NCBI RefSeq assembly: GCF_009184905.1
Contig: NZ_WESC01000004.1
Span: 124,001 to 188,000 of the forward strand
Length of the DNA: 64,000 nt
DNA from: Parvibaculum sedimenti
Lineage (GTDB): Bacteria > Pseudomonadota > Alphaproteobacteria > Parvibaculales > Parvibaculaceae
Direction: 5' to 3'
Of the stretch, positions 7,129 through 23,054 are shown piece by piece. Every line of letters begins with the position of its first letter. Within the stretch, counting starts at the first letter, position 1. The position numbers were made by a program, and so were the translations under genes. The notes under the pieces are model-generated. The model was not told where the DNA came from. It saw only the letters and a list, made by a program, of their open reading frames with translations, and searched no databases.

Positions 7129-8031
7129 ATGAGCGGAATGATCGATACCTATCGCGGCTATGTCTCGATGCAGGAATGCGACGAGATGGGCCATATGAAC
7201 ATCCAGCATTACATCAGCAAGACCTCCGACGCCTCGTTCAACTTCCGCGTTGCGATCGGCATGGGCTTCTCGCATCAGCGCGAAAGCGGCCTTGGCTATG
7301 TCGCGCTCGAGCATCACATCCGCTTTCATCGAGAACTCAGAACCAGCGACCTTGTGCTGGTGAAGTCCGGCGTCATCGAGATCCGCGACAAGACCATGCG
7401 CATGTATCAGGAGATGCGCGAAGTCCTCGACGACAGGCTCGCCGCCACGTTCATCGTCGATGTCGGCTGCCTCGACCTGAAGACGCGACGGCTCGTGCCA
7501 TGGCCCGAGGAGACGCGGAAGAACGCCGAAGCGCTCGTCGTCGCTGAGCCCGAATATGCGCAGCCACGTGGGCTTGCGCGCGAAATCATGGACCGCGACG
7601 TGTCGGCCGTCCGGGCGCACGCGCTCGACATGTTCGAGAGCAACCGCTCGGTCGTGAACACCTGGGAATGCGATACCAACGGCCATATGAATGCGCGTTT
7701 CTTCATGGCGCGCTTCTCGGACGCGCAGGGTCATATGTGGGCCCATGCGGGGCTCGGTCGGCATCAGCAGACGGCAGCGGGCCTTGCTACGGCAACCGTT
7801 GAAATGCGCCTTATTTATTTCCGGGAGATGATGGCGGGCGAAACGCTGTGCGTCAAAACCGGACTTGTCGAAGCGGGCGAGAAGACGCTGCGCTACCGGC
7901 ACTGGCTCTTCAACGCCGAGACGGGCGAACCCGCCTGCGCCGCCGAGGGGCTCGGCCTCCTCTTCGACAAGACGACGCGCAAGGCCGTGCGCATACCGGA
8001 CAATATCGCCGCGCGCTTCGCGCGCGGCTGA
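7129..8031 (+). CDS. Double-hotdog acyl-CoA thioesterase-like protein
   Basis: A 300-residue protein with two 4HBT-type hotdog domains in tandem, laid out like acyl-ACP thioesterases. Each half keeps the active-site signature D-x-x-G-H-M-N: ECDEMGHMNIQHY near residue 20 and ECDTNGHMNARFF near residue 185. Both active sites therefore look complete. It should release free acid from an acyl or hydroxyacyl thioester in the cytoplasm. GAAGGA precedes the ATG. It sits between the HSL-type esterase and a paralog that begins 33 bases after its stop. Confidence 0.82.
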   Translation: MSGMIDTYRGYVSMQECDEMGHMNIQHYISKTSDASFNFRVAIGMGFSHQRESGLGYVALEHHIRFHRELRTSDLVLVKSGVIEIRDKTMRMYQEMREVLDDRLAATFIVDVGCLDLKTRRLVPWPEETRKNAEALVVAEPEYAQPRGLAREIMDRDVSAVRAHALDMFESNRSVVNTWECDTNGHMNARFFMARFSDAQGHMWAHAGLGRHQQTAAGLATATVEMRLIYFREMMAGETLCVKTGLVEAGEKTLRYRHWLFNAETGEPACAAEGLGLLFDKTTRKAVRIPDNIAARFARG

Positions 8032-8064
8032 CAGAATGCAGATATCGGGAATGAGGAATCGAGT

Positions 8065-8979
8065 ATGACCAAGATGATCGACGTTGCGCGGTCGAGCGTG
8101 CAGACCTGGCAATCCGACCAGATGGGCCACATGAATGTGCAGTTCTATATGGAACATGCGACGCAGGGCCTCGCCGCGCTCGGCATTTACCTCGGGCTCG
8201 GACCGCGCTACATCGCCGCCGACCAGGCCCGCCTCATCGCCCGCGATCATCATGTGCGCTTTCTGCGCGAGCAGAGGCCCGGCGCACCCTTCACCATTCG
8301 TGCCGGCATTCTCGACGTCACGGATTTCGGGCTGCGCGTCTATAAGGAAATGTGGAACACGGTGTCGGGCGAGATCGCCGCGACCTTCACCGCCGATGTC
8401 GAACTGCTCGACGAGGATTCACATGAGATGAAGCCGCTGCCCGCCAAGACGATAGCGGCAGCGAAGAGCCTGATAATCGAGCTTCCTGCGCACGGCGCTC
8501 CGCGCGGCCTGACGCTCACGCCCCCGCGCACGGCGCCGAAGCTTGCCGATACGAAGGAACTCGTCTTTACGTGGCAGGGCCAGATTCAGGCCGATCAGTG
8601 CGATGCGCAGGGCTATCTCAGCGCGCGGCATTTCATGGGCGTCGTTTCGGATTCCATTCCGAACCTGCTCGGCCAACTGATGGGCGATGACCGCTCGCAG
8701 AACAGGAAGGTCGGCGGTGCGGCGCTGGAATATCGCTTCCACTATCACCGCTTCCCGCGCGTCGGCGACGTGCTGACACTGAGGAGCGGCCTCAAGGAAG
8801 TCGGCCCCAAGACCTATACCTGGTGCCACTGGCTCTTCGACCTAGAAAGAGGTGACGCGATTGCCACGGCGGAAGCTGTCGCGATTTCGCTCGATCTCGA
8901 AGCGCGCAAGACCATCCCCATTCCAGACGATCTGCGCGCGAAGCTCGAAGGGCTGGTCGTGCCGGGCCTAGGCGTCTGA
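8065..8979 (+). CDS. Double-hotdog thioesterase-like protein, second half degenerate
   Basis: A 304-residue paralog of the upstream gene. The first hotdog keeps the active-site signature (QSDQMGHMNVQFYME near residue 16). In the second the corresponding stretch reads QCDAQGYLSARHF, so the His and Asn of GHMN are replaced by Tyr and Ser, and the second site is probably inactive or altered. The tandem duplication followed by decay of one site is a common way to build an asymmetric enzyme. Its 3' end overlaps the convergent small gene downstream by 12 bases. Confidence 0.78.
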   Translation: MTKMIDVARSSVQTWQSDQMGHMNVQFYMEHATQGLAALGIYLGLGPRYIAADQARLIARDHHVRFLREQRPGAPFTIRAGILDVTDFGLRVYKEMWNTVSGEIAATFTADVELLDEDSHEMKPLPAKTIAAAKSLIIELPAHGAPRGLTLTPPRTAPKLADTKELVFTWQGQIQADQCDAQGYLSARHFMGVVSDSIPNLLGQLMGDDRSQNRKVGGAALEYRFHYHRFPRVGDVLTLRSGLKEVGPKTYTWCHWLFDLERGDAIATAEAVAISLDLEARKTIPIPDDLRAKLEGLVVPGLGV

Positions 8980-9216
8980 TGTCTTCACCAACCGCCGCGT
9001 CTTAATGACAAGCCCGCGCTCGCCTGCGATACGCTGGATCGTCTTCAGCCCGCGGGCGAGCGGATAGAGCGTCTCCATGTCATGCGCTTCGCGGGCTGCG
9101 GAGGCGGCGCGTCTCGTCTCATGATAGAACGCGAGAAGATCCGCCTCGCTCAGCGCGCGCAGAGATTCTTCCTTTTCCGGACGGTTCGGGTCCTGCTCGA
9201 AAAAGGTCAACGCCAT
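8968..9216 (-). CDS. Small conserved-looking protein of unknown function
   Basis: An 82-residue, charged, probably alpha-helical protein (MALTFFEQDPNRPEKEESLR at the start) with no recognisable domain or signal. It follows the alpha/beta hydrolase gene with a one-base stop/start overlap (TGATG), which fixes the start and implies translational coupling. It runs convergently into the thioesterase gene, overlapping it by 12 bases. Function not recognised. The coupling suggests a role linked to the hydrolase and crotonase upstream. Confidence 0.6.
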   Translation of the reverse strand: MALTFFEQDPNRPEKEESLRALSEADLLAFYHETRRAASAAREAHDMETLYPLARGLKTIQRIAGERGLVIKTRRLVKTSDA

Positions 9217-10148
9217 CAGTCGCCGAGCCGCGCGTCGAGGTCGAGCATTTCGCGGCGCACGGCGTCGGGAAACTCCATCGGAATGAAATGCGTGGCGCGG
9301 CCGATACGAAGCAGCGTCGCACGCGGGTCGCGCTGCCCCAGAAGATCGGGTGCGGGCGCGCGGCATGTGGAACCAATGCCCGCATAGATGAGCGTCAGCG
9401 GCGTCTGCAGCCTTGCGAGGTCGGCCCAGATGTCATGATCCTGAGCGCGGAAATTCGCCGCTTCCCACGCCGGCGCACAGGCAAGTTCCGCCTGCCCGTC
9501 ATCGCGGGTTTTCGTGCCACCCTCGACATAATCCGCAATCACTTCTTCAGGCCAAGTGCGGAAAGCGCCGCGCCCCTTGTAGGCCTTCGTCATGGTGGCG
9601 CGGTCGGGGAATACGGCGCGGCGGCGTTCGGCACCATCGGCAAGCGAAAGCGGCCCGCCTTTTCGGCCGAGCATTCGAAAGAGCTTCATCATCAGACGCG
9701 CCGATCGCGGCACCATGACCGGATCGACAAGAACGAGACCGCGCACGAGATCAGGACGCTCCGCAGCGACCATAAGGCTTGTTGCGCCGCCCATGGAATG
9801 GCCGCCAAGCAGGACCGGCCCGCCGCTTTCCTCGACGAAAGGTTCGATGAAGCGGATGAGGTCGTCGCGGAAAATCGTCCAGCGGCGATGGTCCGTCGGG
9901 TCGGCGGAAAGCCGCGTCATGCCATGACCTCGCGCATCCCATGCGCGAATGTGAAAGCGCGAGGCAAGCGGCGACAACAGGCTCCGATAGGTCATGCCAT
10001 TGAAACCGTTGGCATGGGCGAAATGAAGCGCCGGGAGATCCTTCTCCTGTTTCCACTCAAGGAACGATATCTCACCATCCTTGAGCACAAGTTCGCGCCG
10101 CGCGGGCACACTATCTCCGATATGCAGGTTCACGCTCGATACAGTCAT
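9216..10148 (-). CDS. Alpha/beta hydrolase
   Basis: A 310-residue alpha/beta hydrolase (fold-1 type). Landmarks are HANGFNGMTY (oxyanion side, HGxP-like position), WDARGHGMTRL, the nucleophile elbow GGHSMGG with Ser, and a C-terminal His in RIGRATHFIPME. Esterase, thioesterase or carbon-carbon hydrolase activity are all possible. Its ATG overlaps the stop of the upstream crotonase gene (ATGA), so the two are translationally coupled, and the small gene after it is coupled in turn. This three-gene unit probably handles one acyl substrate. Confidence 0.82.
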   Translation of the reverse strand: MTVSSVNLHIGDSVPARRELVLKDGEISFLEWKQEKDLPALHFAHANGFNGMTYRSLLSPLASRFHIRAWDARGHGMTRLSADPTDHRRWTIFRDDLIRFIEPFVEESGGPVLLGGHSMGGATSLMVAAERPDLVRGLVLVDPVMVPRSARLMMKLFRMLGRKGGPLSLADGAERRRAVFPDRATMTKAYKGRGAFRTWPEEVIADYVEGGTKTRDDGQAELACAPAWEAANFRAQDHDIWADLARLQTPLTLIYAGIGSTCRAPAPDLLGQRDPRATLLRIGRATHFIPMEFPDAVRREMLDLDARLGD

Positions 10149-11872: not shown

Positions 11873-12505
11873 TCATCGGAAGTTGAGCGGAATCTCGAAG
11901 ACAAGATCGGCCTCCGTGAGATCGGCGGGCGGCGTGTCGAAAGGCGCCGCTGCTTCGATCGTGCGTAGCGCAAGTGCATCGAGCCTCTCGCTGCCACTCG
12001 ATTTTGCAATGCGGATGGCGGCAATGCGACCTTCGCGGGTCAGAGAGAATGTCGCATAGGCAGTGCCGGGCAGATGAATGCCCTTGGGCTTTTTTTCGGC
12101 GATGCGCTTCCAGACGAGGCTTCCATAGGCGCGAATGCCCGCAGCGCGCGTTTCCACATCTCTGGAAATTGCAGTGTTCGTCTCGACCGGCTTCATCTGC
12201 TGTCGCGGCGCAGCGACCACGGGAGCCGGCTTTTGTGGCACCTGCTTCGGAGCAGGCTTCGGGTGGCGGATAGGGACCGGCCTTTTTTCCAGCACGGGTA
12301 ACGGCTTTTCAACGGGCACCGGCTTCCGCAACTCGGTTTCGGAGAGGATGTGAACGAGCATTTCCTTAGCACCCGTCCCCACATGTTGCGTGGAGGCAGG
12401 CAGAAGCAGGCCCGCAGCCAGCCCCGCATTGACTGCGAAGCTGGCTGCGACCGTGACGGCGCGGCGGAGCCAAGGGCTGCCGGAGGAACCCGCGCCGGCG
12501 AACAT
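11873..12505 (-). CDS. tonB: TonB-family energy transducer
   Basis: A 210-residue TonB protein. An N-terminal membrane anchor (AVTVAASFAVNAGLAAGLL) is followed by a Pro/Lys-rich periplasmic spacer of about 45 residues (KPVPVEKPLPVLEKRPVP and similar), then a TonB C-terminal domain (YATFSLTREGRIAAIRIAKS...). It passes proton-motive-force energy from ExbB/ExbD, which are not in the window, to an outer membrane receptor. The ATG overlaps the receptor's stop by one base (TGATG), so this TonB appears dedicated to the receptor encoded just before it. Confidence 0.85.
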   Translation of the reverse strand: MFAGAGSSGSPWLRRAVTVAASFAVNAGLAAGLLLPASTQHVGTGAKEMLVHILSETELRKPVPVEKPLPVLEKRPVPIRHPKPAPKQVPQKPAPVVAAPRQQMKPVETNTAISRDVETRAAGIRAYGSLVWKRIAEKKPKGIHLPGTAYATFSLTREGRIAAIRIAKSSGSERLDALALRTIEAAAPFDTPPADLTEADLVFEIPLNFR

Positions 12506-14682
12506 CAAAGGCTCAGGGTCAGACCGACATTGAGCGAACGCCCCATGCCCGGCAGCGGACGCAGGACGCCCGTCGCCATGTAGTCGCCGAGCGAGAGCCC
12601 GCCCAGCGGATCGTCATAGGCCGTATCGAAGAGGTTATCGACGCCGAGGTCGATGCGGACATGCTGCCATGTATAGGACCCGCCGAGATTGACGAGGAGA
12701 TAGGACGGCGTTTCGGGCTCGTTGCGCAGATCGTCCACGGAGGATTTGCGCGCCGCACCCTTGAGCTCAACATGACCGGCCCAGTCACCGTAGACCTCCT
12801 CGAGCGTCAGCGACGCATTGAGCGGCATGATGTGATAGAGGCTGCCATCGGTCGTGAGATCCTTACCGTGGACATAGCCGAGCGTACCCTTCAGCGTGCC
12901 CTCGCCCGCCGCGTCCGACTTCCAGAGACCGAGCTTGCCGGAGAGGTTGACGCCGTAGAGTTCGGCATTGTGGTTGACGAACTGGAACTGCGAGAAGCCA
13001 CCGGAGAGGGAGGCGATCTTCTTCACGCCGATATAGTCTTCGACATAGGTGTAGTAGGGCGTGAGCTTCGCCTCCCAGCTCCGGTCGGCGCTGTGGAAGT
13101 CCGCCGTTGCGCTCAGCGTATTGGCAATTTCAGAATCGAGATCGAGATTGCCAACATAGCCATTGCCATCGCCGAACCAGCCGATCATGCGGCTCGCCAT
13201 CGAGCCCCGGCCCCAGGCATAGAGTTCATAAAGATTCGGCGCGCGGGACTTCCTCGCATAGCCGAATTCGAAGGTCGAGGTTTCGTTTGCCTCATATTTC
13301 GCGATGGCAGTCGCATCGAAATTGACGAATGTGTGCTTGTGATCGGCAGCATTGAAGGTCATGGCCGCCATGTTGTCGGACATGCACATCATGCCGCAGC
13401 CATAGGACTGAACGTCGCCCGTGTCGGTCCAGACCGTGTCATTGCGGATGCCGAGCAAGGTCGACCAGCTTTTGGTCCATTTCGCATCCCATTCGGCGAA
13501 GGTGCCGAGGCGATCGCGCTTGCCACCATTGATGTTGATGTAGGTATTGGGGCCCATCATCATGCTCATGGCGACCGGCGGCCACCAGTCGTCGAGACGT
13601 TGGAGATTGAACTCGTTGCCGACGCGAATGGAGCCGCCATCCTTCAGCGCGAAAGTCGCCTTGACCTCATAGCCCGCATTGTCGGCACTGGTGTTCATCG
13701 GCATGCCGCCGTCGGCCATGCCGCCCTTGTCGTCGAGGAAATTCATCTCGTGATCGACGCCCTGCCAGAAGGCGCGGGCCTCGAGCTTGCCCCAGTCGAA
13801 GCTTCCCTCGTAGCGACCGTTGACGAAGGTCGATCGGTTATCCGTCATGTCCATGTACTGGTTCGGATAACCTTCATAGGGCAGGTATTGCTGGCCGGCT
13901 TCGAGAACGACGAGGTTGTCGCCGTTCCTCGCCGCAAGCGTCAGCGCGTGGTTGTAGGACTTGTATTCGGTCGAGCGGACCTCGCCGTCATCGCCGCCGC
14001 CCTCATAGTTCCCGGCGCGAGCGACTGAGCCCTTGTAGCCGATGCTCACCTTGTCGTTGCCGGCGGTCGCGGCCACGGAGCCCGTCAGGCTGTCGCCGTT
14101 GCTGCGATAGAAGGTCGAGGCGCTCGCTGCGAGAACCGCGACGTCTGGCGTGGTGCCGAAGAGCGGCGCGGGGCTGTCGATGACAATGGTGCCGGCGATG
14201 CTGTCGCCTCCCATGCTGACCGGCGTCAGGCCCGCGAGTACCTTCGCCGAGCCGACGCCTGTCGGATCGACATAGGAGAGCGGCGAATTCATGTGGTTCG
14301 GACAGGCTGACGACATCACCATGCCGTCGACGACGATGCGCACACGATCATCGGCAAGGCCGTTGATGACCGGCAGGTTCGAAACCCCGCCTGCCTTGTA
14401 GGTGCTGACGCCGGCAACATCTTCGAACAGAGAGGCCGTGTCGTTGGTATGCGCAAGCTTCCTGAGGCGCTCCAGTGGCGAGACGTTCGTCTCCGTGAGC
14501 GGCGCATAGCCAAGATCGGTTGCCGTCTGTTCCTTCGGCGATTCCACATCGACCGGCGGCAGAAGCGTCGCGTCCTGGGCGGCGGCCATCGCGGGCCAGA
14601 AGAGAACCGGCAGCGCAAGAGCCATGAACGAGCGGGAGAGCGCGCTGCTGCCCAGCAGACGCCCATTGAAACGAATATGCAT
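12505..14682 (-). CDS. TonB-dependent receptor, probably copper (OprC/NosA-like)
   Basis: A 725-residue outer membrane receptor with a signal peptide (MALALPVLFWPAMAAAQ), a plug domain with DVAGVSTYKAGGVSNLPVING, and a C-terminal beta-barrel ending in LNVGLTLSL. Methionine and cysteine rich loops (CGMMCMSDNMAAM; MSMMMGPN; GGMADGGMPMNTS) resemble those of copper receptors such as OprC and NosA. The DUF2946-like gene upstream also favours copper. Metal specificity is inference. AGGAAGGGG precedes the ATG. It is translationally coupled to its own TonB. Expression could respond to copper or denitrification, but no operator was recognised. Confidence 0.85.
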   Translation of the reverse strand: MHIRFNGRLLGSSALSRSFMALALPVLFWPAMAAAQDATLLPPVDVESPKEQTATDLGYAPLTETNVSPLERLRKLAHTNDTASLFEDVAGVSTYKAGGVSNLPVINGLADDRVRIVVDGMVMSSACPNHMNSPLSYVDPTGVGSAKVLAGLTPVSMGGDSIAGTIVIDSPAPLFGTTPDVAVLAASASTFYRSNGDSLTGSVAATAGNDKVSIGYKGSVARAGNYEGGGDDGEVRSTEYKSYNHALTLAARNGDNLVVLEAGQQYLPYEGYPNQYMDMTDNRSTFVNGRYEGSFDWGKLEARAFWQGVDHEMNFLDDKGGMADGGMPMNTSADNAGYEVKATFALKDGGSIRVGNEFNLQRLDDWWPPVAMSMMMGPNTYININGGKRDRLGTFAEWDAKWTKSWSTLLGIRNDTVWTDTGDVQSYGCGMMCMSDNMAAMTFNAADHKHTFVNFDATAIAKYEANETSTFEFGYARKSRAPNLYELYAWGRGSMASRMIGWFGDGNGYVGNLDLDSEIANTLSATADFHSADRSWEAKLTPYYTYVEDYIGVKKIASLSGGFSQFQFVNHNAELYGVNLSGKLGLWKSDAAGEGTLKGTLGYVHGKDLTTDGSLYHIMPLNASLTLEEVYGDWAGHVELKGAARKSSVDDLRNEPETPSYLLVNLGGSYTWQHVRIDLGVDNLFDTAYDDPLGGLSLGDYMATGVLRPLPGMGRSLNVGLTLSL

Positions 14683-14764
14683 TTTGATTGCCCCTTCCTG
14701 AGGACTGACAAAGACAAGTGCTCGCGCGAGGTCATGCCCCCACGCCTTGCAAGCGTTTTTCGTG

Positions 14765-15157
14765 TCAGATCGTCAGGAAGGGTGGCGCACGGGATCGCTC
14801 TCGCGCGAAGAGTTCCCGCTGGAGGGGAAGGTCGCTCGCCGCGTCAAGCGGCGCGGGAAGGAAGGCGGCGTCGTAGATCGCGACCGCAACGCCCATTTCG
14901 GGCGAGGCCAGATGCGCGGCCGCAGCATAGGCACATGGAGCGTAGCGCTGCTCATGGTCGTCATCATGCTGCGACGAGCCGTGTGCATCGCCCCTCTCGG
15001 CAAGGCCGTTCGCCGTACAGATGACGAAGGGGGCCCAGGCCGCCCCGGTATTGTGGGACGGCGGCGCCGGCATCCAGCCGTCCGGCAGGAAGGCACGGAA
15101 AAGCATCGCCGCGAGCGCGACGTAGAATCCGGCCAGACGTGCGGTTTTCATTGCCAT
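14765..15157 (-). CDS. DUF2946-like small membrane/periplasmic protein
   Basis: A 130-residue protein with an N-terminal hydrophobic segment (ARLAGFYVALAAMLFRAFLP) followed by a His/Asp-rich stretch (HGSSQHDDDHEQ) and a short C-terminal hydrophobic part. The layout, including a CTANG motif and the acidic-His patch, is that of DUF2946 proteins, which commonly sit beside copper transport genes. It is the first gene of the minus-strand unit leading to the receptor and TonB, 82 bases ahead of the receptor. A metal-binding periplasmic role is plausible but unproven. Confidence 0.65.
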   Translation of the reverse strand: MAMKTARLAGFYVALAAMLFRAFLPDGWMPAPPSHNTGAAWAPFVICTANGLAERGDAHGSSQHDDDHEQRYAPCAYAAAAHLASPEMGVAVAIYDAAFLPAPLDAASDLPLQRELFARERSRAPPFLTI

Positions 15158-16350: not shown

Positions 16351-16623
16351 TCCGTCCGTCTCTTCCCGTCTCGCGTTTAGCATCGCCAGATTAATGCATA
16401 TCATTAATCGCGTTTATATCCGGTCGCCGACGATATGCAAGACGGAGCGAAAGTGCACCCGCATATGCGGCAGGCCCGCCGTCCTGTGCCGATTCCTTCA
16501 TGACATCAAAGACATACATGGCCGCGACCTTGCCGGTACATGGCCTCGAATTAATAACCGGCCGCATATACAGCTGCTTAAAACAACAACACTAGCAACT
16601 GTCTTCCGCGGAGGGGTGTGATG

Positions 16624-17982
16624 ATGAAGAGAAAATGGCCAGTTCGTGCTGGCCATGCCGCTACGGCTTTACTGTGCCTGATCGCGATGGGAACAGTCTT
16701 TGCTCCACAATCCGCCCAGGCGATCCCCTCTTTCGCGGAGCAGACCGACCAGCCCTGCTCCTCCTGCCACGTCGGCTCCTTCGGTCCCGCACTCACGCCC
16801 ATGGGCCGTCTCTTCAAGCTCAACGGCTATGTCTGGGACAGCGGCGAAACCAGCGTCCCCAAAGTCAGCGCCATGCTGCAGACCTATCTCACCCATACCG
16901 AGAAAGGCCAGGACGGCGGCGCGGCACCGCATTTCGCGCCCAACGACAATCCGTCCGTCGATCAGGTAAGCCTCTTTTACGGCGGCAAGATTCTCGACCA
17001 TCTCGGCGCCTTCGTACAGACGACCTATGACGGCATCGCACGGCGCTTCGCATGGGACAATGTCGATGTCCGCTACGCCGACACCGCGAATTTCGGCAAT
17101 GTGAGCGCGGTTCTCGGCATCTCGGTCAACAACAACCCGACCGTTCAGGATCTCTGGAACTCGACGCCCGCCTGGGGCACACCCTTCTCGGCGGCCGACC
17201 TGGCGCCAGCACCCGCCGCGGCACCCGTGATCGCTGGCGGCTTCGCCCAACAGGTCCTCGGCAGCAGCGTCTACGCGATGTGGGACGACTGGCTCTATAC
17301 GGAAGTCGGCGCCTATGGGAACCTGTCGGACCGCACCCAAACCATTCTCGGCGTCTCGCCCATGGGAGAGAACCGCATCAACGGCCTCGCACCCTATTGG
17401 CGCGTCGCTGCACAGCATCAGTTCGGCTCCCATTACGTCTCGCTCGGAACCTTCGGTCTTTCGGCCAATCTCTTCCCCGGACAAGACCGCAGCGCCGGAA
17501 CGGATCGCGCCACCGATCTGGGCCTCGACGCGACTTACGACTATCTAGGCGACGAAGACAATAATTTCAGCGTCTATGCCGCCTTCATCAATGAGCATCA
17601 AAGCCTCGGCGCGAGCTCGGTGCTGAGCGGCACGAATGGCAGCAACACGCTGCGTTCGGGAAACCTGACGGCTGCCTACACCTACCTTCAGACCTATACG
17701 TTCTCGCTTGGATATTTCGATATCTGGGGAACGACGGACATGGGTCTTTATGGCGGCGACAGCTTCAACGGCTCGCCGAACTCGAACGGCATCAATGCGG
17801 AGATCGACTACACGCCGTTCGGCAAGGACGACTCGCCGTTCGGACACCACGTCAATCTGCGCCTCGGCCTTCAGTACACCGACTACCTGAAATTCAACGG
17901 CGCAAGATCGAACTACGACGGGGCCGGACGAAACGCCTCCGACAACAACACCGTGGCGGCCTTCGCCTGGTTCCTGTTCTAG
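16624..17982 (+). CDS. Cyc2-like fused cytochrome c-porin
   Basis: A 452-residue exported protein with a signal peptide (residues 1-33, cleavage after QSAQA), then one haem c motif (CSSCH) within IPSFAEQTDQPCSSCH and VGSFGPALTPMGRLFKLNGY, then a C-terminal beta-barrel of about 380 residues with alternating aromatic and polar strands, ending in FAWFLF. This order and the LTPxGRxFKLxGY segment are the hallmarks of Cyc2, the outer membrane iron oxidase of iron-oxidising bacteria, and of its wider family of unknown function. It should carry electrons across the outer membrane. Iron oxidation itself is not shown by sequence. Start: ATG seven bases after GGAGGGG. No partner cytochromes are nearby. 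Confidence 0.75.
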   Translation: MKRKWPVRAGHAATALLCLIAMGTVFAPQSAQAIPSFAEQTDQPCSSCHVGSFGPALTPMGRLFKLNGYVWDSGETSVPKVSAMLQTYLTHTEKGQDGGAAPHFAPNDNPSVDQVSLFYGGKILDHLGAFVQTTYDGIARRFAWDNVDVRYADTANFGNVSAVLGISVNNNPTVQDLWNSTPAWGTPFSAADLAPAPAAAPVIAGGFAQQVLGSSVYAMWDDWLYTEVGAYGNLSDRTQTILGVSPMGENRINGLAPYWRVAAQHQFGSHYVSLGTFGLSANLFPGQDRSAGTDRATDLGLDATYDYLGDEDNNFSVYAAFINEHQSLGASSVLSGTNGSNTLRSGNLTAAYTYLQTYTFSLGYFDIWGTTDMGLYGGDSFNGSPNSNGINAEIDYTPFGKDDSPFGHHVNLRLGLQYTDYLKFNGARSNYDGAGRNASDNNTVAAFAWFLF

Positions 17983-18835: not shown

Positions 18836-19456
18836 TCAGCGAGGGCGTGCGCCGCGCGCCTTCGCCTCCTCGACCGTCAGAATATCCATCGCCAGCGCCT
18901 CGCGGCACTGATCAACGCAAACCAGCGCAAGGCGCGGGTGGCCCGCCTCCAGATAGAAATAAATATTGTAGCGCATGGCGTAGATGCTGCTGACCGCATC
19001 GAGCTGAAAAATGCGATCGAGCTTCTGCGGAGGTTCCGCACCCAATGCCGCCTTGAGATTGGCGAGCGCCCGAATCCGCTTTGCCCCCTTCGCCTCCGCC
19101 GCATAAAGCGCCGTGAAGCGCACGCCATAGCGCGGATCGAAATCTCTTGTCTTCGGTAGGGGTGTCGCCGCAGGTGGCAAAGCCAGGACGGAGACCGGCT
19201 CCACCGTGCCATGCGCCAGCCAGACCATGCCTTCAATGGGAACCAACGCATGGCCCGAGGCAGAGCAGACAATCACGGCCCAGAGGCTGAAAGGATTGGG
19301 CACCGCAGGCACGGTACCTGCGGGGGCGTGCTCGCAGAGCAGATCCTCCCGCGGCGCTACCTGCGCAGCCGAGGCGTCTTCGCCAGCGCCCGACAAAGCC
19401 GACATCGCAAGCGCCAGCAGCGTGGCCACGAAAGAGCGTCGAATCACAGTCCACAT
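18836..19456 (-). CDS. Secreted protein of unknown function
   Basis: A 206-residue protein with a clear signal peptide (SFVATLLALAMSALSGAGEDASA). Two cysteine pairs are spread over the mature part (LLCEHAP and IVCSASG; LVCVDQCREAL), consistent with a periplasmic, disulfide-bonded protein. The C-terminal half (IYAMRYNIYFYLEAGHPRLAL) looks folded rather than low complexity. I do not recognise the family. It is a single-gene unit transcribed from its own start toward the Yip1 gene. Confidence 0.65.
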   Translation of the reverse strand: MWTVIRRSFVATLLALAMSALSGAGEDASAAQVAPREDLLCEHAPAGTVPAVPNPFSLWAVIVCSASGHALVPIEGMVWLAHGTVEPVSVLALPPAATPLPKTRDFDPRYGVRFTALYAAEAKGAKRIRALANLKAALGAEPPQKLDRIFQLDAVSSIYAMRYNIYFYLEAGHPRLALVCVDQCREALAMDILTVEEAKARGARPR

Positions 19457-19615: not shown

Positions 19616-21679
19616 CTACCAGGCGTAGAGCAGCTTGAGCGAAAGCCCGTAGCCCTTGGCGTCGCTGCGAATATCCGTCGTGCCCGCCAGACCGATGGTC
19701 AGGCCACCCGGCGAGGACGCGGTAACGCCGAGATTGGCGAGCAGCGCATCACGGTCGACCGCCTTCTGCGCGTAGACGAAGCTCGAAGCCGGCGTCGAAG
19801 CGAAGGAAGCCGTGGCCGTGCCGTCGGGCTGCGAGACATCGTGCCCCCAACGCAGGTCAAGCGAAGGCGAAACCGTCGCATTGGCGGTGGGCGCCTCGAA
19901 GCTCGTTCCGACGGCCGCGCCAACCGAGGTGCGCACCAGCGTATCCGACTGCGAGTTCTGCGCGAGGTTGAGACCGCCAGCACCCGTCTCCGTGTAGGAG
20001 TCGGAGTGGAAGTTCACGACGTCGATGCCTGCGACCGGCTTCAGCCATGCCTTGCCACCGAGGTCGACGCGGTAGCCCGCCTCGCCCTGAGCGGTCAGCA
20101 TATAGCCGCCGAAATCGCCCGTGGCCGTGCGGTCGATGCCGCCGAAGACGATGCGACGCGAGGTGCCGTAATCATTATAGGCGGCGGCGATGCGGCCCGA
20201 GAGGTCGACGGCGCCGAAGCTGGAACCGGCATAGGCGCCAAGTTCATAGGTCGAGACTTCGCTGCTGCTGCCGATACGGGAATGATCGGCATTGGCGTGG
20301 GCGTAGGTCGCCGAAAGGCCGATGATCGTCGTGTCTCCCAGGAAACGGTCGATACCGCCGACGATGCCACCACCGCGATAGTCGTAGCCATTGGCCAGGC
20401 CCGCATCGGACGAGGCATTGCCGAAAAGGCCGAAGCCTCGCGCCCAGACGGCCCATTCCGGCCGTAGGCCCGTATTGCCGATAAGGGACGCCGTGAGGTC
20501 GCCATCGGCGCCGGACGCGGCAAGGCGCGTGCCGCCATTCCGCATGGCCGTCTGCTGCGCGCCGATGCGGTCGGAGACCAGTGAACCGATCGTGCCCGCC
20601 GTGCCGATAAGCGCCTGATTCACGGGCGCGGTCGGATTGTCGGGTGCCATCTGGTTGAAGGCGTTGGCTGCCTCGCCTTCCGTGCCGGTATCGATATAGG
20701 CAAGGATTTCGGCGAGATCGCCGCTGGCATTGTTATGGGCATGGTCGAGGGCGCCTGCGACCGCAAAGCCGTTCGGCGTATCGGCGACGCTCTGGTAGCT
20801 AACGCCATTGCGCTCGAAGCCGAGCAGAACGGCATTCGACGTATAGGTGAGCGTCGGCGTGACAAAAGCCGCGTTGATGTTGTCGACGAGCGACGAGAAG
20901 GTGCCCGTGCGGCTGTCGCCCTGAACGATCGTGTAGTCGAGATCGGAGCGGAACCGCGTTGACAGCGAGGAGACTTCGACCGCGCCGTCGAGTGTCACAT
21001 TGCCGGTGACGTCGAGGAGATCGGAGCCGCCGGTGCCATTGATCTTCACGTAGTAGAGGCCGGTCGAGCCCTGCGTAAAGGCACCATCGACCGAGAAAGT
21101 GCCGATGGAGGAGCCGGTGCCCGTCGCAACCGCACCATTGTTGGTAAAGAGCGTCGTCGTGACGGTGCTGCCATTGATGAAGCCGGCACCCGCAGCGACC
21201 GTGAAGACGTCGGTGCTCGTATAGTCGCCGGACAGCGTGACGACGCCGGATTTCACGTTGGTCGTCTCGAAGTTGATCCAGTCCGCGCCGGTGAGCGTGA
21301 AGGTCGAGAGCGCGCCGCGATCGATATTGAGCGTGTCGGAGCCGCCTTCCGCATCGACGATGCCCGTCACCGAACCGCCGAAATTGTTGAAGGTATCGTC
21401 GCCATTGCCCATCATCACGCTCGTCGCCGAGGAGCCCGAGATGGTGCCGTAGTTGGTGATGGTGTTGCTCCAGCGGCCCGCATCATCGGCGAGCCTGATC
21501 GCATAGCCATCAAGGCCCCGGATCGTGCCGTAGTTGGTGATGGAGGTCGCGCCGAAGGCATCGCCATTCGCGCTGTCATCGACCGTGATACCGTAATTGG
21601 CGCCGGAGATCAGCGCCGACGTGTGCGACGCATCGCCGTTGATGACGGTGCCGCCGCCGAGTGCCAGGCCTTCACTCAT
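19616..21679 (-). pseudogene. Autotransporter, C-terminal part with beta-barrel (after in-frame TAG)
   Basis: This is the distal part of one autotransporter whose reading frame runs without shift from the upstream part at 21824-22924. Between them, 48 sense codons (21680-21823) continue the passenger sequence (for example GDGDGVDIDHIAYVENYGTI), so only a single TAG at 21824-21826 separates the halves. The 687 residues seen from the first Met include more NYGTI-type repeats and a C-terminal autotransporter barrel of about 260 residues (from RPEWAVWARGFG to the terminal KLLYAW). The Met at 21679 has no ribosome site and no signal peptide, so this part would not be exported alone. Either a pseudogene, or read through TAG. 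Confidence 0.8.
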
Positions 21680-21823
21680 GCTGGGATCAGTCTCACCCGG
21701 CTTGATACCGTGTGCGCCCGTGCCCTGAATGGTGCCGTAGTTCTCGACATAGGCGATATGATCGATGTCGACACCGTCACCATCGCCGAAGGAATAGGCT
21801 TCGTTGCCACCTTCATAAGCCGC

Positions 21824-22924
21824 CTAATTCCAGGTGCCGGTAATCGTTGCGCCCTCATAATTATAGACGGAGACAACAGACGCATTGTCCGTCGCGTCGG
21901 AGCCGACACCGGAGCCGTTCTCGCCGGTGATCGTGCCCCAGTTGTAGACCGTGGTTCCTGAGGCATCCTTGTCTATCGTGATGCCGTGCTTACCGCCGGT
22001 AATGGACGCGCCGGCATAATTGTAGATGACGTCGTTCTTGCCATCGTCGCGAACGCCGTACATGTCGCCAATGCTGTCGTTATTCTGCAGACCTTCGTTG
22101 ACGATCACGCCGGTCGTCTCGATCACACCGTAGTTCTGCAAGACGGTCCCCGTATAGCCCGGATCTCCGAGACGCACGGCGCCGACTTCGCCTTCATTGG
22201 AATTTCCATCAGGATCGGCATCGACGCTTGCGGCATCGCCGGTGGCCCTGATCGTCCCGTAGTTGACGACCGTGGATGTGCCCTTCTTGCCCGCATAAAG
22301 CGCATAGACATTGGAGTCGGCGTTTGCGTAGTCGAGCAAATCCGAATCCGTGATGGTCTCCGTTACCGTCGCCCCGGCAGTGCTCTGGATCAGCCCGCCA
22401 AGCTCATTAGTGATGGTGCCGCTACCGATATAGATGGCATAGCCGTTCTGGGCCGGCGCTGGATTTCCACTCGCCTGAATGGTTCCGGAATTGTCGATCG
22501 TAACGCCGGTTCCAAGCCTGATTGCCCCGCCCGTGTCGCTCGTCGGGTTCGAAGCGTCGGACTGGATCGTTCCGGAATTGATGATCGAGACGTAATTGTT
22601 GCTCTTTGTACCGATGGCGGAAAGCGCCGAGCCGGAAACCGAGTGAATCGTGCCTGCATTCGTGAAATCGGTGGGGTTGCCGGAAGTGCCGGTCGTCATG
22701 GTGATCGGCGTCTTGTTGGTCGCCGTCGAGTTGTCGATGGTGGTGCCTGCCTCAACGCAGCTCCCATCCGTCGCGGTGAGATTGCCCGCGGTCGTGCTCG
22801 ACAGGCAGCCAGCGGCAACAGCCGGAGACGACATAGACAAGAGGGCTATCGCCGCGGCCGAACCGAGCAGCACAGAAATCGATGCGCGGTACGCAATGCG
22901 ACCGCTCCGAAAATCGCGAAGCAT
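21824..22924 (-). pseudogene. Autotransporter, N-terminal part: signal peptide and passenger
   Basis: 366 codons before TAG. Residues 1-38 form a long autotransporter-type signal peptide (RASISVLLGSAAAIALLSMSSPAVAA). The rest is a beta-helical passenger of repeated N-Y/S-G-T-I units (FTNAGTIHSV, IINSGTIQSD, VVNYGTIRAT, VYNWGTITGE). The frame ends in GTW-Asn-TAG and continues open past the stop into the second part. The ATG at 22924 follows GGGGG, and the 25 codons upstream are leader. The complete frame would span 19616-22924, about 1100 codons. Without readthrough the passenger has no translocator. Confidence 0.8.
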
Positions 22925-23054
22925 GAAACCCCCATAAAAAGCTGCCCGCGCGCAGGCGCGGCCAGTTGCCTGTATGGGTGTGTTAAACCCAGCTTTCACG
23001 AAAGCTGGGCGTCAGAAAAATGACGGATCGATTACAAACGTCCTTTTTCGAAAC

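Follow-up and report, generated by a model that had tools for sequence, protein, structure and literature searches.

An orphan Cyc2-like cytochrome-porin gene in Parvibaculum sedimenti and its relation to the Cyc2 family

In Cyc2, which carries one haem and takes electrons into iron-oxidising bacteria through the outer membrane, a cytochrome and a porin are fused in a single chain, and according to the excerpts of PMC8406198 drawn on in this study, one tested Cyc2 from each of three clusters oxidises Fe(II), while the function of Cyc2 is uncertain far from the tested members. The signature given in the same source is AXPXFAR[Q/K][T/Y] before the CXXCH motif and PXL after it, the latter stated as 4 amino acids downstream of CXXCH, in a protein of at least 365 residues (PMC8406198). 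A published alignment comprises 1,593 Cyc2 sequences.

The gene presented here lies in a window of 64,000 nucleotides, i.e., the whole stretch of DNA that was analysed, and its features are collected in Table 1. The reading frame starts with ATG, just behind a second ATG at 16621, and runs intact to a stop codon at 17980-17982. Open copies are present in three relatives of the genus (G004, G015, and G020; identities of 73, 81, and 93%), and the frame is a real, intact, full-length gene. Its parts follow in the order signal peptide (recognised by eye), AIPSFAEQT, CSSCH, PALTPMGRLFKLNGY, and a barrel ending in Phe. With 452 residues and a single CXXCH, the protein is longer than the published minimum. 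AIPSFAEQT agrees with the signature, which is a consensus, at six of its seven specified positions and differs in the replacement of Arg by Glu, and PAL follows CXXCH after a spacer of 5 residues. The preliminary description, which was made from the letters alone, had placed CSSCH and PALTPMGRLFKLNGY behind the signal peptide, and both are found there. It stated that this order and this segment define Cyc2; the excerpts of PMC8406198 give PXL in the signature and do not name LTPMGRLFKLNGY. No Pfam or NCBIfam model matched the protein, a sequence search against the solved structures of the PDB gave no match, and a guessed 15-base pattern for CSSCH had no match in the same genome, in which the codons differ.

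Table 1. Positions of the features of the Cyc2-like gene in the window
Feature	Position	Strand	Basis
Cyc2-like fused cytochrome-porin gene, 452 aa	16624-17982	+	Open reading frame, genus copies, homologues, model
GGAGG ribosome-binding site, 5' of ATG 16624	16610-16614	+	Sequence
Signal peptide, residues 1-33, SAQA at end	16624-16722	+	Predicted by eye
AIPSFAEQT, with Arg replaced by Glu at residue 39 of the published Cyc2 motif	16720-16746	+	Sequence compared with excerpts of PMC8406198
CSSCH, sole haem c attachment motif, residues 45-49	16756-16770	+	Sequence
PALTPMGRLFKLNGY, spanning residues 55-69, with PXL and the conserved GRxFK	16786-16830	+	Sequence, alignment
Lys65, candidate distal haem ligand	16816-16818	+	Alignment column counts
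Predicted 16-strand outer-membrane β-barrel, residues 81-451, followed by the C-terminal Phe	16864-17976	+	AlphaFold2, porin matches
Long loop between strands 5 and 6, residues 170-210	17131-17253	+	AlphaFold2 position, alignment conservation

Distribution and position within the Cyc2 family

Within Parvibaculum, the gene is present in 4 of 27 genomes, i.e., that of P. sedimenti and those of the three relatives above, and no copy was found in 10 further genomes of the same family outside the genus. Cyc2-like genes occur in 16 of 387 genomes of the class sample and in 64 of 397 genomes of the phylum sample, and 39 of these 64 belong to one family (f174), which we infer to be Zetaproteobacteria with cluster 1 Cyc2. 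Up to three matches per genome were obtained in f174, and the sequences that were read mostly carry FARQTG, letters for which no occurrence was found in the literature searched. In a pattern search of 84,980 species genomes (genome_contigs), 527 of the 557 matching stretches encode a relative, and among 72,556 plasmid records, 9 have a homologue that covers 80% or more of the query, with 33-43% identity; the resemblance in the pattern is therefore not due to chance. Among the best 80 of the 527, from which the names of relatives were taken, the subfamily is found in named isolates of Novosphingobium, Solimonas, and Roseateles, other relatives are titled Methylocapsa and Thauera, and one Gammaproteobacterium MAG (L120) has a name that includes Mn. 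When 80 members of the subfamily and its near kin were scanned, Pfam gave no match at the threshold used, and two NCBIfam models were hit, each by a single member: a siderophore porin model (E = 0.00014) and one for an unrelated domain (E = 0.006). Neither is a Cyc2 model. Pfam and NCBIfam therefore miss this group.

Two observations concern plasmids of Acidiphilium. In Acidiphilium multivorum pACMV3 (L012), the Cyc2-like gene at 7890-9258 is annotated as two separate hypothetical proteins. The Cyc2-like region of a plasmid recorded for Acidithiobacillus ferrooxidans YQ-N3 (L010, CP084173.1) looks identical to that of Acidiphilium cryptum pACRY03 (L013, NC_009469.1), as would be expected if the plasmid is shared or if an Acidiphilium grew alongside in the culture.

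Cyc2-like sequences linked to rusticyanin served in the trees as proxies for validated Cyc2. The rusticyanin model TIGR03095 passed its cut-off in 1 of 369 genomes (G981), where the gene is preceded by a UbiA-family gene and followed by a CtaG gene, in agreement with the gene order ctaB-rus-ctaG described for Acidiferrobacter in the excerpt of PMC10654088. A Cyc2-like match is present in 15 of the 18 genomes of the family of G981, and none is present in G981 itself. In three genomes of this family and in G1035, which belongs to another family, the Cyc2-like gene is followed on its own strand, after 6.5-7 kb, by a rusticyanin homologue (87-91% and 45% identity, respectively). The class of G493, with rusticyanin in 0 of 48 genomes, was the wrong group for proxies. 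The Parvibaculum protein was compared with two of the four rusticyanin-linked copies, and both alignments span its whole length, with 31% identity (E = 3e-51 and 4e-63); a profile comparison with ten f174 rows aligned columns 1-292 (E = 2.5e-18). The spacer between CXXCH and PXL has 3 residues in the rusticyanin-linked copies, 4 in the f174 rows, and 5 in the subfamily that contains Parvibaculum; one of the rusticyanin-linked copies (L254) has Leu in place of the Thr of the motif.

In a quick tree of 134 rows, the four Parvibaculum sequences form one clade (support 100) within a large group that includes the rusticyanin-linked rows (98) and is separate from f174. In a careful tree of 73 hand-picked rows, all 41 rows with a five-residue spacer, including that of P. 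sedimenti, form one group (100/99), and the rusticyanin-linked rows branch outside it; in the quick tree, this group had a support of 62. Among the 61 rows omitted from the careful tree are the long branches L256, L255, L202, L205, L013, and L199. The 134 rows themselves exclude L010, which looked the same as L013, the split gene of L012, short fragments, some further copies from the search of the family of G981, and most f174 copies, of which 11 rows were taken. The Parvibaculum protein thus belongs to the same large branch as rusticyanin-linked Cyc2, as part of a separate subfamily. A grouping with unrelated CXXCH proteins, which had been named beforehand as an outcome that would speak against the assignment, did not appear; in trees and pairwise comparisons, the protein groups with the Cyc2-like genes of rusticyanin neighbourhoods and their relatives.

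Predicted barrel and haem site

The AlphaFold2 model of the mature protein was calculated from an alignment with 79 homologues (A4; 80 sequences, i.e., the protein itself and L107 to L186 except L151). It consists of a short helical segment bearing CXXCH, followed by 16 strands, with a mean pLDDT of 93.1 and a pTM of 0.90. Folding of the single sequence as a control produced no fold (pLDDT of 30.7), and the model thus rests on the alignment. The structure prediction that the preliminary description had proposed accordingly returned the C-terminal β-barrel claimed there, not a fold lacking one. The loop between strands 5 and 6, which we take to be in the place of the constriction loop L3 of general porins, has a mean entropy of 1.69 bits, compared with 2.20-2.86 bits for loops 1, 2, and 4-7; the value for loop 8 is 1.57 bits. 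A computational model of the A. ferrooxidans Cyc2 reportedly exists, as does a mutagenesis study. Foldseek and VIA-align matched our model with general porins at Z-scores of about 22, e.g., OmpC (PDB accession number 2xe2; Z-score = 22.0, RMSD = 3.6, number of aligned residues = 304). OprO (4rjw) was found at Foldseek rank 10, and for Cyc2PV-1 the excerpts of PMC8406198 mention OprO together with OprP.

At the position of Arg in FAR, 88 of the 121 aligned homologues have Arg, and among the 33 others Glu is found in 21, including the Parvibaculum protein. Arg is kept in 37 of 69 rows with a five-residue spacer, compared with 64 of the 65 remaining rows. Lys65 of GRxFK is present in all 121 rows and in all 11 f174 rows, a count that leaves aside L255 and L256, the latter having Arg at this position. 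Apart from the His of CXXCH, no His or Met reaches 85% across the 121 rows, and Lys65 and the CXXCH His are the only His, Met, or Lys residues conserved in the counted rows. Because of this conservation in all counted rows, Lys65 is a candidate for the distal ligand of the haem.

Gene neighbourhood and candidate partners

Among the open reading frames of at least 70 codons in the 64-kb window, two others contain CXXCH, and both look spurious by eye; the earlier statement that no cytochrome gene is nearby is therefore right for the window. Likewise, no cytochrome was found beside the gene in the flanks of the three genus relatives, those of L107 being short (3.7 kb and 1.4 kb). The next gene downstream in P. 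sedimenti encodes a Yip1 domain. In the eight of nine plasmid regions that were examined, an annotated c-type cytochrome gene is the next one downstream in seven and lies two genes upstream in the eighth. For the aligned rows, a partner was defined as an open reading frame with CXXCH and a hydrophobic N-terminal stretch and not by annotation. Such a frame is the next one downstream in 30 of the 66 five-residue-spacer rows with enough flank, always with one haem motif, in 23 of 44 three-residue-spacer rows (19 two-haem and 4 one-haem), and in 3 of the 14 rows with other spacers. Three of the 30 (L136, L175, and L204) share over 100 bases with the Cyc2-like gene, and a separate filter missed them. 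The apparent dependence of partner type on the spacer (one-haem in 30 of 30, two-haem in 19 of 23) comes down to one change in the tree and one independent pair, and thus reflects two lineages, not a co-adaptation of spacer and partner.

Some of the homologous loci have further redox genes. A Caballeronia plasmid (L007, 6948-9965) has genes for a HiPIP, a Cyc2-like protein, and a two-haem cytochrome in one stretch that is flanked by transposase genes. In L161 and L165, an open reading frame with four CXXCH motifs is located within 40 bases of the Cyc2-like gene, besides a one-haem cytochrome, and in L157 a frame with ten motifs is located 160 bases from it.

The genome of P. sedimenti encodes a one-haem cytochrome c, soluble as judged by eye (G000:C6:86206-86505) and presumably c2-like. 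The comparison with the cytochromes of this genome covered 27 of the 30 one-haem neighbours. The best match was the soluble cytochrome c in 20 (32-44% identity) and L017, a longer one-haem cytochrome that appears by eye to be membrane anchored, in 5 (37-50% identity); the remaining 2 match neither. The search of the whole genome for periplasmic cytochromes, advised in the preliminary description, thus yielded a soluble protein homologous to the neighbours in the subfamily, which on these comparisons is likely to be the partner of the Cyc2-like protein. Its presence is not specific, since it is of a general kind. The contig of the Cyc2-like gene also encodes FixO and FixP of a cbb3 oxidase, about 111 kb from it. 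RuBisCO was found in none of the six genus genomes searched, four with the gene and two without.

The locus is arranged in G015 and G020 as in P. sedimenti, and G004 carries the gene on a different contig, with DUF1501 and DUF1800 genes as neighbours. In the one-contig relative G013, 64 bases separate the stretch matching the glutathione transferase gene from that matching the gene at 18836-19456, and both the Cyc2-like gene and the Yip1 gene are missing between them. The presence in 4 of the 27 genomes, together with these varying positions, suggests gain or loss. Base composition gave no support for a recent transfer, as GC (0.611) and GC3 (0.768) are within or near the range of the neighbouring genes. 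Between the transferase gene and the Cyc2-like gene, a palindrome, GATTAATG-N5-CATTAATC, is present at 16389-16409, and its arms are kept in two relatives. We rejected it as a control site of the Cyc2-like gene and assigned it to the transferase gene, because in G004, whose Cyc2-like gene is not at this locus, the transferase gene is preceded by a similar palindrome. Farther downstream, an autotransporter-like gene (by appearance) on the minus strand (19616-22999) is broken by an in-frame stop; the matching frame of L040 is open for at least 923 codons. On the other side, the minus strand at 11873-15157 encodes TonB, a Met-rich TonB-dependent receptor, and a protein with a weak DUF2946 match. 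The best model for the receptor is the copper receptor TIGR01778 (132 bits, under the cut-off of 472), and these genes, which were not found at the corresponding place in G013, perhaps serve copper uptake.

Proposed function and comparison with known systems

We consider it probable that the protein is a Cyc2-family device for electron intake at the outer membrane, with dissolved Fe(II) as the most likely donor and a soluble cytochrome c leading to the cbb3 oxidase. A single haem c would be held by the N-terminal, periplasm-side segment of the 16-strand porin barrel. Entering the pore from outside, a reduced donor in solution (Fe(II) in the most likely case) would hand one electron to this haem. 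From the haem the electron would go to the soluble cytochrome c of the periplasm, whose gene is at another place in the genome, and on to the cbb3 terminal oxidase. It follows from such a path that the donor would be oxidised outside the cell. Since RuBisCO, the one CO2-fixing route searched for, was not found, a supplement to heterotrophy would be likelier than autotrophy. Iron is the best-supported donor because of the tested representatives of the three clusters (PMC8406198), and confidence in it is limited by the change of Arg to Glu, by the missing partner gene, and by the use of proxies instead of validated Cyc2 in the trees. Against this function stands the lack of a visible partner gene beside all four Parvibaculum copies. 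The excerpt of PMC5371394 on a biocathode community also counts against it: the activity of a Parvibaculum sp., which may or may not carry this gene, was uncorrelated or negatively correlated with current. Parvibaculum made up 2.7% of a nitrate-reducing iron-oxidising culture (PMC11784278), and in the excerpts of these two papers, each of which mentions both Parvibaculum and Cyc2, we found no statement ascribing Cyc2 to Parvibaculum.

The preliminary description had warned that the substrate may not be iron, and this caution was right. The same device may work with another donor, such as Mn(II), reduced organics or humics, an electrode, or a partner cell, iron being incidental. This alternative differs from the favoured function in the donor alone, and the likelihoods given to the several readings do not sum to one; we regard it as unlikely. 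The replacement of Arg by Glu near the haem site could shift the potential or the selectivity, and relatives occur, among the best 80 of the 527, in the five genera named above, none of which is to our knowledge known for iron oxidation. The Mn in the name of the MAG L120 points in the same direction, as does a role in Mn(II) oxidation proposed for the Cyc2 of Ca. Manganitrophaceae (PMC9040806, excerpt), whereas the Cyc2 representatives that have been tested biochemically oxidise iron (PMC8406198).

An improbable alternative is a fading haem route, i.e., a patchy accessory of Parvibaculum that has lost its partner and the motif Arg and now serves mainly as a pore. The occurrence in 4 of the 27 genomes at differing positions, the lack of a partner gene, and the non-Arg residue in the motif would agree with it. 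So would the partner counts in 67 five-residue-spacer rows, where a partner frame accompanies 24 of the 37 copies that have Arg and 6 of the 30 that lack it (Fisher p = 0.0004, kinship ignored), but this link between the loss of Arg and that of the partner rests on just 3 independent pairs, is non-significant, and was rejected. CXXCH, PXL, and FKLNGY are, moreover, intact in all four copies, which have open frames and differ by up to 27% in sequence. Still less probable is work in the outward direction, with electrons passed to extracellular ferric iron or another acceptor; Cyc2 isoforms have been described in ferric iron reduction by acidithiobacilli (PMC10715153, excerpt), but the present data give no indication of direction. 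That the protein is an unrelated CXXCH protein with a chance likeness to Cyc2 would suit the absence of Pfam and NCBIfam matches, and has next to no probability: it is ruled out by the full-length alignments with rusticyanin-linked Cyc2-like genes, the 16-strand model, and the hundreds of homologues.

As an extension of the favoured electron intake to the whole branch, we offer a tentative and rather doubtful proposal. A widespread, poorly annotated branch of Cyc2 with a five-residue spacer, often without the motif Arg, might give heterotrophs an auxiliary extracellular electron intake that feeds their ordinary periplasmic cytochrome c pool and needs no operon of its own; the donor would not have to be iron, and His together with the conserved Lys of GRxFK would hold the haem. 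The protein of Parvibaculum itself belongs to an already known family and is not a new kind of system. What deserves notice is an orphan Cyc2-like gene in a genus in which no RuBisCO was found (six genomes), and the fact that no Pfam or NCBIfam model naming the group turned up in the 80 members scanned. Parvibaculum is a heterotrophic degrader, and if the protein works as proposed, it could draw electrons from outside the cell; the genus has been reported in a biocathode biofilm (PMC5371394, excerpt). Lists of iron-oxidising or electrode-using organisms may be too short, because Pfam and NCBIfam miss the subfamily. Since named isolates carry it, iron oxidation by non-canonical Cyc2 can be tested in cultured bacteria.

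Compared with the Cyc2 of the rus operon of A. ferrooxidans, which is assigned to cluster 2 (PMC7029218 and PMC8406198, excerpts), the Parvibaculum protein has the same order of signal peptide, motif, CXXCH, PXL, GRxFK, and barrel, as seen through the rusticyanin-linked copies. These copies have FAR and a three-residue spacer, whereas the Parvibaculum protein has FAE and a five-residue spacer; a cytochrome frame is directly downstream in three of the four copies and is absent beside the Parvibaculum gene. The rus operon series of cyc2, cyc1, oxidase genes, and rusticyanin is likewise absent from this locus. Cluster 1 Cyc2 (Cyc2PV-1 of Mariprofundus, with a reported potential of 208 mV) is described as a 16-strand fused cytochrome-porin with the same order of motifs (PMC8406198), and the Parvibaculum protein has a profile match to the cluster-1-like f174 rows, but its identity to them is only 19-21%; a further point of this comparison is that RuBisCO was not found in the six Parvibaculum genomes. 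The Cyc2 homologues of Acetobacteraceae, compared by description, are likewise alphaproteobacterial and often adjoin a mono- or di-haem cytochrome c gene (PMC10715153, excerpt), an arrangement that is also widespread among the homologues examined here, whereas the Parvibaculum copies are orphans. MtoAB, PioAB, and MtrAB perform the same task of moving electrons across the outer membrane with a separate 26-strand porin and a decahaem cytochrome (PMC8406198), whereas the Parvibaculum protein has one CXXCH motif and 16 predicted strands in a single chain.
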